Shown piece by piece: positions 7,005-34,116 of a DNA stretch of 64,000 nt. The stretch is from an uncultured Caulobacterales bacterium (GTDB lineage Bacteria > Pseudomonadota > Alphaproteobacteria > Caulobacterales > Caulobacteraceae). The stretch's first letter is position 1. Each line of letters starts with the position of its first letter. The position numbers and the translations under genes are program-made. The notes below the pieces were generated by a model. The model searched no databases. It was not told the origin of the DNA and saw only the letters and a list, made by a program, of their open reading frames with translations. The stretch lies in NCBI GenBank assembly GCA_903837135.1, contig CAILTK010000089.1:124001-188000 (forward strand), in the 5' to 3' direction.

Positions 7005-8239
7005 TCCCGCCCCGCATCCGGCCCGAGGCGATCCTCGACCATTTCCGTCCGGGGGCGACGATCTACATCCCGGGCGGCGTCGCCGAACTCGGCGTCCTGC
7101 GCGAGCTCCTGATCGCTGAGCCCGACCGCCTCGACGGCGTCACCCTGGTCAGCGGCCTGATCCCCGGGATCAACAGCTTCGACTATGCCGGCCTGCATCC
7201 GGGAGCGCGGCTACGCGTGTTCATGATGTCCGACGCCCTGCGGGCCTCGTTCGCGGCGGGGCGGGTGGAGGTTTTGCCGCTCGCCTACACCGGCACGGCC
7301 GCCTATCTGGCGGCGCTGCAGGCCGACCTCGCTCTCCTGCACCTGACGCCGCCCGAGGACGGCGTCTGCCGCTTCGGCGCGGCCGCCGACTTCGGGCCCA
7401 TCGCAGCCCGTTCGGCCAGGGCGCGGATCGGGATGCTCAACACCGGCATGCCCCGGCCGGCGGTCTCACCGGGCGTCGCCCTGTCGGACCTCGACGCCGT
7501 GGTCGAGATCGATGCGCCCCTGCCGACCTTCGCCGATCCGGCCCCGTCGCCGGCGCTGGAGGCCCTGGCCAGGGGGGTGGCCGACCTCGTGCCGGATGGC
7601 GCGGTGGTGGAGACGGGGGTCGGCGCCGCGCCCGCCGCCGTCTGGCGGGCGCTGCACGGTCACCGGAACCTGCGGCTCCGCTCCGGCCTCGTCACCGACG
7701 GCGTGCTGCAGGCCTGGAGGGCCGGGGCGATGGCCGGGCGCGGCCATCTGGCCGGCATCGCCTATGGAAGCGCCGACCTGCACGCCTGGCTCGATCGCCA
7801 GGACCGGGTGGCCTTCGCCGACGTCTTCACCACCCACCTGCCGGACCCGACGGACCCCGCGCCGTTCATGGCCATCAATTCGGCGCTCGAGGTCGACCTC
7901 TACGGCCAGGTGAACCTCGAATGGCGCGCCGGGCGCTGGGTCAGCGGCGTCGGCGGGGCGCCGGACTTCACCCGCATCGCCCGGGCCAGCCCCGGCGGCC
8001 GTTCGATCGTCGCCCTGCCGTCCACCGCCGGCGCCATCTCGCGCATCGTCGCCCGCCTGGAGACGCCAACGGTGTCTCTGCCGCGCACCGAGGTCGACAC
8101 CATCGCCACCGAGCACGGCGTCGCCGACCTCAAGCCGCTTGATCCCGACCGGCGCGCCGAGGCCCTCATCGCCATCGCCGCGCCCGCGCACCGGGCGGCG
8201 CTGGCCGACGCCTGGCGCCGGCTGCGCGGCGCGGGCTGA
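7001..8239 (+). CDS. Acetyl-CoA hydrolase/transferase (4-hydroxybutyrate CoA-transferase-like)
   Basis: GTG start overlaps thiolase stop (GTGA); IPGGVAELGVLRELL...INSALEVDLYGQVNLEW...GVGGAPDFTR...VSLPRTEVDTIATEHGVADL. Confidence 0.85.
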   Translation: MIPPRIRPEAILDHFRPGATIYIPGGVAELGVLRELLIAEPDRLDGVTLVSGLIPGINSFDYAGLHPGARLRVFMMSDALRASFAAGRVEVLPLAYTGTAAYLAALQADLALLHLTPPEDGVCRFGAAADFGPIAARSARARIGMLNTGMPRPAVSPGVALSDLDAVVEIDAPLPTFADPAPSPALEALARGVADLVPDGAVVETGVGAAPAAVWRALHGHRNLRLRSGLVTDGVLQAWRAGAMAGRGHLAGIAYGSADLHAWLDRQDRVAFADVFTTHLPDPTDPAPFMAINSALEVDLYGQVNLEWRAGRWVSGVGGAPDFTRIARASPGGRSIVALPSTAGAISRIVARLETPTVSLPRTEVDTIATEHGVADLKPLDPDRRAEALIAIAAPAHRAALADAWRRLRGAG

Positions 8240-8342
8240 CGCCGACGGCGTGCGCTGCGCCGCGGTGAACGGATCCGGGGACAAGCGCCACGCGCCTTCC
8301 GGGATGGCGACCACTTTTCCGGACCGGAGGACGGCTTCGGGT

Positions 8343-22945: not shown

Positions 22946-23905
22946 GTGTTTGCTGTGGCCAATGAGGCTCTAATGCTGTCGTCCACCTGGTGGTACTACA
23001 CCGTTGAACGTGAAGACGGCCAATATTACCAGGGCGTTTACCCGGACGACATGGTCCTGCTGCCGCGGGTCAATCTTGCGTCGATAGATCTGCGCGGGAT
23101 GAAGACTCTCGATATCTGTACGATGGAGGGGCTGATGCCCACCCTGATGTGCAAGGGCGGCGCGGCTGAAGTCGTCGCCACGGATAACGAGCGTCCGTCG
23201 GCCTATCCCCGCGACGGCAACGACACCATGTTGCAGATGGCCCCCAAGGTCAACGAAGTGCGGCGTCTGTCCAAGACCAACTGGCAGTACGAGGTGGTGC
23301 CGGAGTTCACACCGGTCAGCCATCACTTGCTGAAGCACGGTTACGGCCAGTTCGACCTGATCAACCTGTCGGGTCTACTCTATCATGTCTACTCGCCCAT
23401 GCACTGGCTGGGCGCGGTGCGACCGCTGGTGCGCGATGGCGGCCTGGCCATCATCTCGACCAACGTCTCCTACCACGACTCCCCGGTGATGGTGTTCAAC
23501 GAGAAGGGCTTCCTGCAGCCCAACCTGACCACCTACTGGTATCCGACGGTGTCCCTGTTCGATTATCTGCTGCGATACTTCCGGCTGGCGCCGATCCGCG
23601 CCATCTATTCGCGCTCCGCGCCGCCGCATAACGGCTATATGAGCGTGATCTGCCGGGCGATGCCGGACGTGGTCGCCGACGCCGACGACACCTGGATGCA
23701 GCCCTCCGCCTGGCACTCCTGGGATTCCATGTGGTACGGCGGGCTGGAGATGGCCAAGCGCAGCGAGCGGTCGTCCATCGGCTTCAAGCAGCCGTTCGAA
23801 GAGCGCCGGATCAGCCTGTTCGACACCACGCTGAACACGCCGGAAATCCCCCATCTGGGCGCGACCGCGCACACCGCGATTCTGCGACTGGGCGACACGG
23901 AGTAA
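22946..23905 (+). CDS. Class I SAM-dependent methyltransferase-like protein (CmoB/DUF1698-like fold)
   Basis: WWYYTVEREDGQYYQGVYPDDMVLLPRVNLASIDLRGMKTLDICTMEGLMPTLMCKGGAAEVVATDN...FDLINLSGLLYHVYSPMHWLGAVRPLVRDGGLAIIST. Confidence 0.65.
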   Translation: MFAVANEALMLSSTWWYYTVEREDGQYYQGVYPDDMVLLPRVNLASIDLRGMKTLDICTMEGLMPTLMCKGGAAEVVATDNERPSAYPRDGNDTMLQMAPKVNEVRRLSKTNWQYEVVPEFTPVSHHLLKHGYGQFDLINLSGLLYHVYSPMHWLGAVRPLVRDGGLAIISTNVSYHDSPVMVFNEKGFLQPNLTTYWYPTVSLFDYLLRYFRLAPIRAIYSRSAPPHNGYMSVICRAMPDVVADADDTWMQPSAWHSWDSMWYGGLEMAKRSERSSIGFKQPFEERRISLFDTTLNTPEIPHLGATAHTAILRLGDTE

Positions 23906-23908
23906 GCG

Positions 23909-25228
23909 GTGAGCGACCTTCTTCCGGCGCGGCGCGACGCCGACCTCGACGCCTTCCTGGCGTCCGAGGACGACGGGCTGATCTACATCGGTCACGCCTC
24001 GATCCTGGTGCGCCTGAACCGCAAAACCTTCCTGTTCGACCCGGTCGGCTATTCGTCGCCCTACTTCAACTGCTGGGTGTTCTTCCCGCCGCAGATCCTT
24101 GATCGCCGCCTGCTGAAGGTCGATGCGGTGATCGTTTCGCACTGCCACCAGGACCATTTCGACGTGGAGCTGCTGCGGCTGTTCCCGAAGACCACGCCGG
24201 TGTTCATCGTCGGCGGCCGTCCGGCGTTCGAGCAGGCCTTCATCGATGCGGGCCTGGCGTTCCGGGTCATTCCGCCCGAGGTCGCGGTGTCGATCGCCGA
24301 GGGGGTGGAGGTCTACGCCGTCCTGCACGAGTCCAACGGGATCGACGCCTCGCTGATCATCAAGAACGACAACTTCAGCGCCTATCACGGCAACGACAAC
24401 TACGCCTCGCCGGAGGCGCTGCGCCGCCTGCGGGCCCGGGTCGACCACGTCGATGTCGCCTGTGTGCCGTTCGCCTATATCCACTGGTACCCGTTCCTGC
24501 TCGACGGCGTGGACGACGCCTGGCGGGCGGACGAAGCGCGCCGGCTGACCCACCTCTACCTCGACATCGGCCTGGAGCAGGCGGAGATCCTCGACGCGAC
24601 CATCGTCATGCCGTTCGGCGCCAATCTGGTCTATTACGACGACGTCAATTCGGTGATGAACCGGGCGGTGCTCTCGCCGCTCGATTTCGTCGCCTATGCG
24701 CACAGTAAGCCCGCGCCGCATCCCGAACGTTTCCTGCCGATGTTCGCCGGCGACCGGGTGACCAAGCCGCGCGCGGCGGGCGGCGACCTGGTGGTCGACG
24801 TCAAACCCCGCACCGATGCCGCCTTCAAGGCGCAGATGCAGGCCCATCTCGAGGCCAACCCGGCCCGCCCGCCCGACCTCGACGCGCGAAGCGTTCGCGC
24901 CGACGTGCCGACGGATTTCACCTGGCTGCAGGAGCGACTGCGGCGATACCCGGGCGGACGCTTCGCGCACAGCATCCGGCTCGAGGGTCCCGGCCCCGAC
25001 CCGGTGAAGGTCGAGGTGGACCTGAGCACCTTCGATGTCGCCGTGGTCGACGACTGGCGCGGCGTCGAGCCCTATCATCATTTCCGGCTCGAGGCGGAGC
25101 CCATGGCCCACTGGCTGCAACAGCGGGTGACGCTCGAGGGCGTGATCGGCATGCGGCGGTTTCGCCTCGAGCGCGTCCCCGACCGATACGATCCGCAGAT
25201 CCTGGCGCTGATCAACAACGCCTTGTGA
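23909..25228 (+). CDS. MBL-fold metal-dependent hydrolase
   Basis: LIYIGHASILVRLNRKTFLFDPV...VIVSHCHQDHFDVELLRLF; metallo-beta-lactamase metal-binding motif; 3 nt after methyltransferase stop, GTG start. Confidence 0.8.
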   Translation: MSDLLPARRDADLDAFLASEDDGLIYIGHASILVRLNRKTFLFDPVGYSSPYFNCWVFFPPQILDRRLLKVDAVIVSHCHQDHFDVELLRLFPKTTPVFIVGGRPAFEQAFIDAGLAFRVIPPEVAVSIAEGVEVYAVLHESNGIDASLIIKNDNFSAYHGNDNYASPEALRRLRARVDHVDVACVPFAYIHWYPFLLDGVDDAWRADEARRLTHLYLDIGLEQAEILDATIVMPFGANLVYYDDVNSVMNRAVLSPLDFVAYAHSKPAPHPERFLPMFAGDRVTKPRAAGGDLVVDVKPRTDAAFKAQMQAHLEANPARPPDLDARSVRADVPTDFTWLQERLRRYPGGRFAHSIRLEGPGPDPVKVEVDLSTFDVAVVDDWRGVEPYHHFRLEAEPMAHWLQQRVTLEGVIGMRRFRLERVPDRYDPQILALINNAL

Positions 25229-26026: not shown

Positions 26027-27094
26027 TCACGCGCGCGTGGAGACGACGCCGCGGCGGATCTGGTCGAGCTCGATCGACTCGAACAGGGCCTGGAAGTTGC
26101 CGTTGCCGAAGCCGTCGTTGCCCTTGCGCTGGATGATCTCGAAGAAGATCGGGCCGAACACCGGCTCGGTGAAGATCTGCAGCAGGAGACCCTCGCCGTG
26201 GGCGTCGCCGTCGAGCAGGATGCGGTTCTTCTTCAGCCGCTCCACATCCTCGCCGTGGCCGGGCACGCGCGCATCGATCAACTCGTAGTAGGTGTCGATG
26301 GTGTCCTGCAGGACGACGCCGCGGGCGCGCAGTTTTTCGATGGTGTCGTAGATGTCGGGCGTGGTCAGGGCCAGGTGCTGGATGCCCTCGCCCTTGTACT
26401 GGCGCAGGAACTCCTCGATCTGGCTGTCGTCGTCCTGGCTCTCGTTGAGCGGGATGCGGATGGCGCGGTCCGGAGCGATCATCGCCTGGCTGAACAGGCC
26501 GGTGGCCTGGCCCTTGATGTCGAAGAACTTCTGCTCTTCGAAGCCGAAGATGTCGCGATAGAAGCTCGACCACGTCCGCATCTGGCCGCGGTGGACGTTG
26601 TGGGTCAGGTGGTCCAGCAGGTCGAGGCCGACCGAGTTTTTCGCTTCCGCCTCGGCCGCCCCGGGGACCGGCGTCCAGTCGGCGAAGGCGTCGTCCGGGC
26701 CCGACACCAGATAGAGCAGGCTGCCGCCGATGCCCTGCAGCACCCGCCCGCCGGGGCCCAGCAGCGAGCTCGCCGCGTCGGCCTTGGCCGCGCCCCGGGT
26801 GCGCGCCTCCTCGTACGCGGCCTCGACGTCGCCGACGACGAAGGCCATCCCGTTGGCGGAGGGACCGTGCGCGGTGCGGAACGCCAGCGCCTGACCGCTT
26901 GCCGCCTCGTTGACGACGAAGTTGATCCGGCCCTGCTTGAAGCGGGTGGCCGTCCCGTCCGGATGGACGCTGGCGGCGACGAAGCCCAGCTGTTCGAACT
27001 GAGCCTTCATCGCCAGCGGGTCCGGGCTGGTGAATTCCACGAAGGCGAAGCCGTCGAGGCCGAGGGGATTGGCGGTGTCGATCATGCGAGACAT
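26027..27094 (-). CDS. hppD: 4-hydroxyphenylpyruvate dioxygenase
   Basis: GLDGFAFVEFTSPDPLAMKAQFEQLGFVAASVHPDGTATRFKQGRINFVVN...LLQIFTEPVFGPIFFEIIQRKGNDGFGNGNFQALFESIELDQIRRG. Confidence 0.94.
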   Translation of the reverse strand: MSRMIDTANPLGLDGFAFVEFTSPDPLAMKAQFEQLGFVAASVHPDGTATRFKQGRINFVVNEAASGQALAFRTAHGPSANGMAFVVGDVEAAYEEARTRGAAKADAASSLLGPGGRVLQGIGGSLLYLVSGPDDAFADWTPVPGAAEAEAKNSVGLDLLDHLTHNVHRGQMRTWSSFYRDIFGFEEQKFFDIKGQATGLFSQAMIAPDRAIRIPLNESQDDDSQIEEFLRQYKGEGIQHLALTTPDIYDTIEKLRARGVVLQDTIDTYYELIDARVPGHGEDVERLKKNRILLDGDAHGEGLLLQIFTEPVFGPIFFEIIQRKGNDGFGNGNFQALFESIELDQIRRGVVSTRA

Positions 27095-32043: not shown

Positions 32044-34116
32044 TCATAGAGGCCGGTCTCCGCGCCCGGCGTCCTCGTCGCCGACGCGCTCCAGCCAGGC
32101 CTCGCGCCAGAACAGCGGATTGGCGCGCGGGCAGTTGCGCGTGCAGCGGCCCTGGCAGTCGACGCCGTCGAGCGTCACGGTGGAGGTGAGCCGCACCATC
32201 CGGCCGGTCTCCTCGTGGATCATCCGATCGACCCGTCGCGCGACCGTGTGGATACGCCCCGCGTGCCCGGTCATCTCCGGTTCGAAGGTCATGCCGCGGT
32301 TGCGGCCATGGGCGTTCAGCGTGGCGGCGATACGCCGGGGGGGCTTGACCCGAACGATTTCGCCGGGCTCGAGGTCGAGCCGGTCGATGACCTTGCCGTT
32401 CCGGCCCTTGAGGCTGCCGATCTCGCCGCGGCCGATCAGCGCCAGCGCCTTGCGGGCGACGGTGCGGCCGACGATTTCGACCAGGCGCGGCGGCTCGAGT
32501 TCGCCCCGCCGCAGGTCGTCGGCCAGGGCGCGCAATCCCGGCGCCGGGCCGGTGACCTTGGCCAGGGCGGTGGATTGGCACAGATAAAGGTCGCCGTCGC
32601 GAACCGCAAAGCCGGCCAGCCGCCGCAGCGCCTCGGCCTCGGCTGCGGGATCCGGCGCGGGCCCGTCCTCGTCCTCGGGAGCCAGCCAGGCTTCGTTCCA
32701 GAACAGGGCGCAGCCGCGCTGACAGCCGTCGTGGGCGGTCCCGTCGCAGCGCGCGTCGTCGAGGAAGACGGTCAGGGGCAGGGCGCGCAGGCCCAGGCCC
32801 TCGACGCAGGTCTGGTCGGCGCGCCGGCGGACGGTCAGGATCTGGCCGATGAAGGGGATCATCTCCGGCATGAACGGCATGCCGCCGAGCCGGCCCGCCG
32901 GGTCGAGGGTCGAGAGGATCTCGACCGCACTCTTCACCCGCACGGCGTCGTGGCGCAGCGGTCCGGGCGGGGAGGCGGATGCGGGCCGGCTGCGGAGCAG
33001 GCGCCTGGCGTGGCGGGCCTGGCGGTACAGCCGCCAGGGCAGGGACGTCTCGACGGACGTTCGACGGATCCGTTCGGCGGCGGCGAGCGCCCGGCGGTCG
33101 ACCTCGGCCTTGGCGGCGTCGGTGTAGAAGCCGGCGATCACCGACGCCTCGATGTTCGGACGCTCGAGCCAGGCGGGAAGGCGAACCAGGAGCTGGCGAA
33201 TGTCGGTGAGCAGCCGGGTCACGCCGAAGGCGGTCGACGGGCAGGAGGTCTGGAAGGCGTCGCCGATCACCACCAGGCCGGGACGCTCTGGCCGCACCAG
33301 CCGGTGCAGATGGGTGACGCGGATGTCGGCGGGCCCCACCTCGCGGGCGCCCGCCAGGTGGCGCTTCAGGCCCGGCGCGATCTCCAGCAGCGCCTGCAGC
33401 GGCGCGCGTCGCGCGTGCCGGACCCAGGGATCGGAGGGATCGTGATAGGTGAACAGATTGACCCGCGTGGCCCCGTCCATCGGGAAGAAGCTGGCGTAGC
33501 CGACCCGGTCGCCGGCCCGCTCGCCGAAGTGGACCCGGTCGTTGAACGGCAGCGGGGCGCCGGCCGCGGTCACCAGGCTGAAGCCGACGCAGATCGAGTG
33601 CCCTTCGCGCAGGACCTGGCGCTCGAGCCCGAGGCGCGAGATCAGCGCCGGACTGGAGCCCGAGGCGATCACCGCCAGGCGCGCCCGGGCCAGCTCGCCG
33701 TCCGGTCCGATCAGCCGCTGCAGCCCGCCGTCCCCCGACACGTCGAGCACGCGATCCGCCACGAAGCGGACGCCGGGCGGCCAGGCGGCGCGCACGGCGT
33801 TGACCATCGCCTCATAGCGGAAGCCGTTCTTGTGCAGGCCGCCGTCCCCGGGAAAGGCGGCGTTGAGCACGTCGGCGACGCCGAGCGCCTCCAGGAGCGC
33901 GATCTGCGCGGGGCTGACCTTCTCGCAACGGAAATCGGTCCGGTGCTCTGGATGCAGGTCGACGATGACGACGCTCACGCCGCGCCGCGCCAGAATCAGC
34001 GCCAGAAGCGAACCGCACAGGCCGGCGCCGACGATGCCCACGTCGGCCACGGGCGGCCGCGCCGCCACGCCTTGGCGATGCGCCGCATTCCCATCGATGA
34101 CCGCCGTGTTCGCCAT
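32044..34116 (-). CDS. FAD-dependent oxidoreductase (aromatic-monooxygenase fold) fused to a Cys-containing uncharacterised C-terminal region with two related domains
   Basis: N-term VADVGIVGAGLCGSLLALILARRGVSVVIVD (Rossmann GxGxxG) and RPGLVVIGDAFQTSCPSTAFGVTRLLTD (second FAD motif); C-term repeats GGMPFMPEM...RCDGTAHDGCQRGCALFWNEAWL and RGMTFEPEM...DCQGRCTRNCPRANPLFWREAWL; start at internal Met MANTAVID. Confidence 0.8.
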   Translation of the reverse strand: MANTAVIDGNAAHRQGVAARPPVADVGIVGAGLCGSLLALILARRGVSVVIVDLHPEHRTDFRCEKVSPAQIALLEALGVADVLNAAFPGDGGLHKNGFRYEAMVNAVRAAWPPGVRFVADRVLDVSGDGGLQRLIGPDGELARARLAVIASGSSPALISRLGLERQVLREGHSICVGFSLVTAAGAPLPFNDRVHFGERAGDRVGYASFFPMDGATRVNLFTYHDPSDPWVRHARRAPLQALLEIAPGLKRHLAGAREVGPADIRVTHLHRLVRPERPGLVVIGDAFQTSCPSTAFGVTRLLTDIRQLLVRLPAWLERPNIEASVIAGFYTDAAKAEVDRRALAAAERIRRTSVETSLPWRLYRQARHARRLLRSRPASASPPGPLRHDAVRVKSAVEILSTLDPAGRLGGMPFMPEMIPFIGQILTVRRRADQTCVEGLGLRALPLTVFLDDARCDGTAHDGCQRGCALFWNEAWLAPEDEDGPAPDPAAEAEALRRLAGFAVRDGDLYLCQSTALAKVTGPAPGLRALADDLRRGELEPPRLVEIVGRTVARKALALIGRGEIGSLKGRNGKVIDRLDLEPGEIVRVKPPRRIAATLNAHGRNRGMTFEPEMTGHAGRIHTVARRVDRMIHEETGRMVRLTSTVTLDGVDCQGRCTRNCPRANPLFWREAWLERVGDEDAGRGDRPL

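Follow-up and report, generated by a model that had tools for sequence, protein, structure and literature searches.

Fusion of a predicted flavin-dependent oxidoreductase with a widespread protein family without a Pfam or NCBIfam model in Caulobacteraceae

A single gene of the Caulobacteraceae encodes a predicted flavin-dependent oxidoreductase of the PF01494/UbiH/QhpG type and, as its C-terminal half, a member of a widespread protein family for which neither Pfam nor NCBIfam contains a model. The gene is located in the window, the stretch of 64,000 nt that was analyzed, and the fusion is almost certainly genuine. The genomic neighborhoods of standalone relatives of the two halves tentatively suggest, with a probability of about 0.42, that the fusion protein performs an oxidation step in the synthesis or modification of surface glycans, with the C-terminal part acting as a binding or scaffold module.

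The fusion gene and its flavin half

The initial annotation had described a protein of 690 aa in which a flavin oxidoreductase is fused to an orphan family. The open reading frame, including its ATG start, is exactly as described (Table 1), and the match to PF01494, together with a C-terminal part that matches no curated family, agrees with this description.

Table 1. Features of the fusion gene in the window (aa, residues of the encoded protein)
Feature	Position	Strand	Basis
Complete fusion gene, 690 aa + stop	32044..34116	-	ATG start; ORF call
FAD-dependent oxidoreductase half (predicted), N-terminal, aa 1-385	32962..34116	-	PF01494 match and homology to standalone enzymes
Junction, linker ~aa 376-392	32941..32991	-	alignment and sequence
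Repeat 1 of the C-terminal part, aa 393-487, predicted SH3-like	32656..32940	-	invariant C437, C457, C465, C469, W473, W477
Helical connector between repeats, aa 488-584	32365..32655	-	invariant C513-Q514
Repeat 2 of the C-terminal part, aa 585-680, predicted SH3-like	32077..32364	-	invariant C654, C662, R671, E672, W674

Both flavin motifs that had been quoted were found in the N-terminal half, which carries a GxGxxG motif near aa 30-35 and a GDA...CP...G motif at aa 285-298. PF01494 (FAD_binding_3) matches aa 24-86 with 45.9 bits (5.8e-12), above the Pfam gathering cut-off of 22 bits, and standalone enzymes are homologous to the flavin half over nearly its entire length. The scores are far below the cut-offs of all named NCBIfam subfamilies: the window protein reaches 29.8 bits with TIGR01988 (UbiH/UbiF/COQ6; cut-off 224.65 bits) and 27 bits with QhpG (NF049967; cut-off 240 bits), and its standalone relatives reach at most 71 and 62 bits, respectively. 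The N-terminal half resembles PF01494, TIGR01988 and QhpG in the GxGxxG dinucleotide fold, the GD motif, the length and the domain order, whereas these families lack the C-terminal module, and the alignment of the window protein with them lies mainly within the N-terminal 60 aa. QhpG is the best NCBIfam match of three standalone flavin homologs (57-62 bits), but because its cut-off is missed, the comparison can serve only as a lead.

The two halves are joined by a poorly conserved linker rich in Pro, Ala and Arg, at which the standalone flavin homologs end. Codon-position GC contents of 0.75/0.53/0.91 and 0.77/0.52/0.91 in the two halves are equal, as would be expected of one native coding sequence.

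The C-terminal family and its predicted fold

The C-terminal 298 aa of the window protein have no match in Pfam even at E = 10, and none of 85 family members reaches the cut-off of a curated family in Pfam or NCBIfam, the NCBIfam matches being at chance level; thus, no characterized family was found to which the C-terminal part could be assigned. A two-motif scan of genome contigs revealed at least 249 related places, and the best 80 of these 249, which were retrieved, belong to Alpha-, Beta- and Gammaproteobacteria, Acidobacteriota, Nitrospirota, Verrucomicrobiota, Planctomycetota, Myxococcota, Fibrobacterota and others. An actinobacterial relative (Nonomuraea) was present in a plasmid collection. 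A literature search on the sequence motif, on the PIG-L/RfbF/C-methyltransferase cluster and on a flavin enzyme in Wzx clusters retrieved nothing about either family.

The two segments that had been noted as related are true homologous repeats, as repeat 2 alone aligns with repeat 1 of the relatives at ~38-42% identity, with E values down to 9e-14. Their Cys patterns are also as originally given, namely C457-x7-C465-x3-C469-ALFWNEAWL in repeat 1 and C654-x3-C658-x3-C662-PRANPLFWREAWL in repeat 2. Seven Cys residues are invariant in the 85 aligned sequences (C437, C457, C465, C469, C513, C654 and C662, numbered according to the window protein), four of them in repeat 1, and C658 varies; further invariant residues are D405, R456, W473, W477, E614, E635, R671, E672 and W674. 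By spacing, C654 and C662 of repeat 2 are the counterparts of C457 and C465, and C437 and C469 have none. The window protein belongs to this undescribed family, as its C-terminal part is homologous to the other members from end to end and has the two repeats as well as all seven invariant Cys residues. Standalone proteins encoded in glycan clusters, for example LRP29_RS32035 of Mesorhizobium ciceri (annotated as "hypothetical protein"), are homologous across the whole C-terminal half with 31-55% identity and share both repeats and the invariant Cys residues, but they lack a fused flavin enzyme, their middle region is longer and their glycan neighbors have been retained.

An AlphaFold (AF2) model of the C-terminal part, calculated from the family alignment, had a pLDDT of 94 and a pTM of 0.88; the single-sequence model of the full protein reached a pLDDT of only 35. 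The top Foldseek matches of the former were SH3-like proteins, i.e., the nitrile hydratase beta subunit and the Mind bomb repeats, although no solved structure matched over the whole length or at E < 0.001 (best E 1.3e-3, TM ~0.2 on the query). Fifteen of the 85 members have weak Pfam matches to the Mind bomb SH3 repeat (PF18346; 2e-4 at best), but the window protein has none. The model therefore points to tandem SH3-like barrels, a character shared with PF18346 and the nitrile hydratase beta subunit; the structural match to these is only partial, and the Cys cluster is a feature of the C-terminal family. Candidates from a PDB profile search (double-psi barrel designs and a dynein regulatory protein) matched at chance level only and were discarded.

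Recurrence of the fusion and gene neighborhoods

The search for further fusions and for adjoining flavin partners covered 299 genomes of the Caulobacteraceae, the window's own taxonomic family, and yielded both. A genome of another genus (G722) contains a second full-length fusion with 48% identity over aa 24-679 and zero stops. In a third genus (G630), the flavin and C-part genes are separate and adjacent on the same strand; the C-part gene may start at a GTG that overlaps the TGA of the flavin gene or at an ATG 8 bp downstream of this TGA, and the two genes are probably coupled. Seven genomes of the family contain a C-part, and a flavin enzyme is present in four of these, fused in two, adjacent in one and on a different short contig in one (G650). 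No flavin homolog was detected in the remaining three (G574, G750 and G861), and no C-part was detected in five genomes with a flavin homolog (G564, G569, G590, G620 and G662). Apparent extra fusions at four further loci (L041, L043, L059 and L060) were dismissed, as their N-terminal stretches look like GC-rich overrun of an open frame and have no flavin match.

The fragmented assembly (120 contigs) and the existence of both halves as standalone proteins might raise the suspicion that the fusion is an artefact of assembly or sequencing. This is extremely improbable: the independent fusion in G722 recurs without stops, which rules out a sequencing error, and the reading-frame composition is equal on either side of the junction. 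In the C-part tree, the two fused members form a sister pair (SH-aLRT 90). A single fusion event would account for this grouping, but with few members in the tree it is not certain. In the flavin tree, the four C-part-associated enzymes also cluster, with a support of only 76.

The neighborhoods of 82 standalone C-part loci were compared with those of 29 control loci of flavin homologs in Alphaproteobacteria. Homologs of PIG-L deacetylase were found at 57 and an RfbF-like nucleotidyltransferase at 55 of the 82 C-part loci (both together at 54), and neither was found at any of the 29 control loci. Further frequent neighbors were RmlC (41/82), NAD-epimerase (36/82), C-methyltransferase (33/82), glycosyltransferase 2 (32/82), DUF4910 (25/82) and DRL oxidoreductase (21/82), and at least one marker of the glycan-cluster set was present at 75 of the 82 loci. 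It should be noted that the C-part loci are mutually related and the control loci somewhat shorter, so that the counts are not independent, but the contrast is still large. Of the two kinds of neighborhood named in the initial annotation, natural-product and glycan, the 82 loci thus bear out the second; no natural-product cluster was noticed.

A nucleotidyltransferase - PIG-L - C-part gene order is found repeatedly, namely in Bradyrhizobium, Nitrospira, Acidobacteriota, Gammaproteobacteria and Myxococcota. This order, often with glycosyltransferase 2 as the next gene, is shared by clusters of several phyla (L033, L046, L055, L062, L069, L098 and others) that contain either a C-methyltransferase or a DRL oxidoreductase; the two types may be variants of one unusual-sugar pathway. 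In annotated records, the C-part gene of Mesorhizobium ciceri lies amid rfbC, DUF4910, methyltransferase, LPS biosynthesis and glycosyltransferase genes, and that of Bosea adjoins an LPS gene. One Bradyrhizobium locus contains two C-part genes on opposite strands (L025:3808-4965 and 7201-8313). This gene context suggests that the C-part family acts in O-antigen or exopolysaccharide biosynthesis.

None of the glycan-cluster C-part loci examined encodes a flavin homolog. No glycan cluster was recognized around the fusion gene in the window, and most other C-part genes of the window's family lie at unrelated chromosomal places without an adjoining glycan cluster. A location in such a cluster is usual among the members of the C-part family, though not universal. 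Read by eye, the window also contains a methyltransferase-like gene closely followed by a gene of the metallo-beta-lactamase-fold type (22946-25228).

The flavin relatives form at least three groups in the tree. Members of group one (G662, G620, G217, G334, G504, G1407, G1453, G1398 and G1459) mostly lie in clusters with Wzx, Wzy, Wzc/Wzz, glycosyltransferases or a GH5 (cellulase-family) enzyme, and a relative from Aureimonas likewise lies in a polysaccharide cluster of the Wzx/Wzy/Wzc type. The second, large clade often adjoins the ribosomal genes rpsL-rpsG-fusA; its standalone enzymes in the G217 family (L157-L161, L163 and L167) lie outside glycan clusters, often near a GNAT gene (PF13480). 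The third group comprises the fused and C-part-associated enzymes as well as those of G564, G569 and G590, the clade nearest to the fused one, and is without glycan genes. PF13480 genes neighbor several flavin homologs, including some in polysaccharide clusters, and in G861 a PF13480 gene begins within a standalone C-part gene of the same orientation (L118:6220-8473); however, PF13480 is common, with 4-9 copies per genome in the genomes counted here, and thus its link between flavin and C-part loci is weak. In the window (26027-27094) and at one G662 locus (L121:733-1839), a 4-hydroxyphenylpyruvate dioxygenase-like gene lies within ~5-6 kb of the flavin gene, possibly by chance.

Possible functions of the fusion protein

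As relatives of both halves occur independently in surface-polysaccharide clusters, and as three genera have the halves either fused or side by side, an enzyme that oxidizes a sugar, a glycan or a related substrate is the simplest account. The C-terminal module would fold as two SH3-like barrels, and a Cys-bound metal ion, most likely zinc, would probably stiffen repeat 1. The module may bind a sugar nucleotide, a lipid-linked glycan or one of the assembly proteins and present the bound ligand to the FAD center, which would oxidize or hydroxylate the sugar or a substituent, so that both halves would act on one substrate. The probability assigned to this reading is limited because the fused genes lie outside glycan clusters and the C-parts in glycan clusters have no flavin partners; in addition, no flavin enzyme was detected in three of the seven C-part genomes, the flavin clade nearest to the fused one has neither glycan context nor a detected C-part, and another large flavin clade often adjoins ribosomal genes.

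The module might alternatively have left glycan synthesis in the window's family. The fusion would then act on its own as a redox enzyme or redox sensor, the Cys module would only bind a partner or stabilize the flavin domain, and the glycan history of the C-part family would be incidental. This is rather unlikely. In its favor, the seven C-parts of the window's family form a separate, long-branched clade (support 100), retain little of the helical stretch in the middle and are encoded at unrelated chromosomal places, but all seven core Cys residues and the Trp residues are still invariant, so that the chemistry of the module seems to have been kept. Furthermore, the GNAT gene that the C-part gene overlaps in G861 is of the kind that adjoins flavin homologs in polysaccharide clusters.

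An iron-sulphur or dithiol center formed by the Cys cluster could feed electrons to the FAD and make the protein a self-sufficient oxygenase. Some class A-like flavin relatives require a separate reductant, and this need, the four invariant Cys residues in repeat 1 with three elsewhere and the fusion or adjacency to the flavin enzyme are consistent with an electron-transfer role. It is nevertheless improbable, as most C-part members have no homolog of the flavin enzyme nearby, the spacing C-x19-C-x7-C-x3-C differs from the standard ferredoxin motif and none of the 85 members scores above the cut-off of a redox-protein family. Still more improbable is that the module itself is the substrate, with a conserved Trp close to a Cys as the site hydroxylated by the flavin half, by analogy with the action of QhpG on QhpC (cysteine tryptophylquinone): most C-part genes have no flavin partner and yet keep the same Cys and Trp residues, the QhpG scores are far too low and neither a radical SAM nor a quinoprotein partner was noticed in the neighborhoods examined. 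The analogy draws on the rank of QhpG among the NCBIfam matches of the three standalone homologs, on the proximity of invariant Cys and Trp residues in the module and on the hydroxylation (dihydroxylation) of peptidyl Trp in a crosslinked protein by QhpG (PMC7876137).

If the glycan-oxidation reading is true, the fusion would give the first indication of what a widespread, uncharacterized family of surface-glycan biosynthesis does biochemically. It is possible, albeit doubtful, that in at least one lineage the C-part family and a flavin enzyme cooperate directly to oxidize a sugar or glycan in an undescribed step of O-antigen or exopolysaccharide assembly. The family may also bear on unusual-sugar clusters in Bradyrhizobium, a genus in which an 11-gene operon for the sugar bradyrhizose has been assigned only by mutation (PMC4743980). 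The fusion gives a first testable hint to the biochemistry of this family, for which at least 249 related places in many phyla were counted, and offers a single polypeptide for its study.
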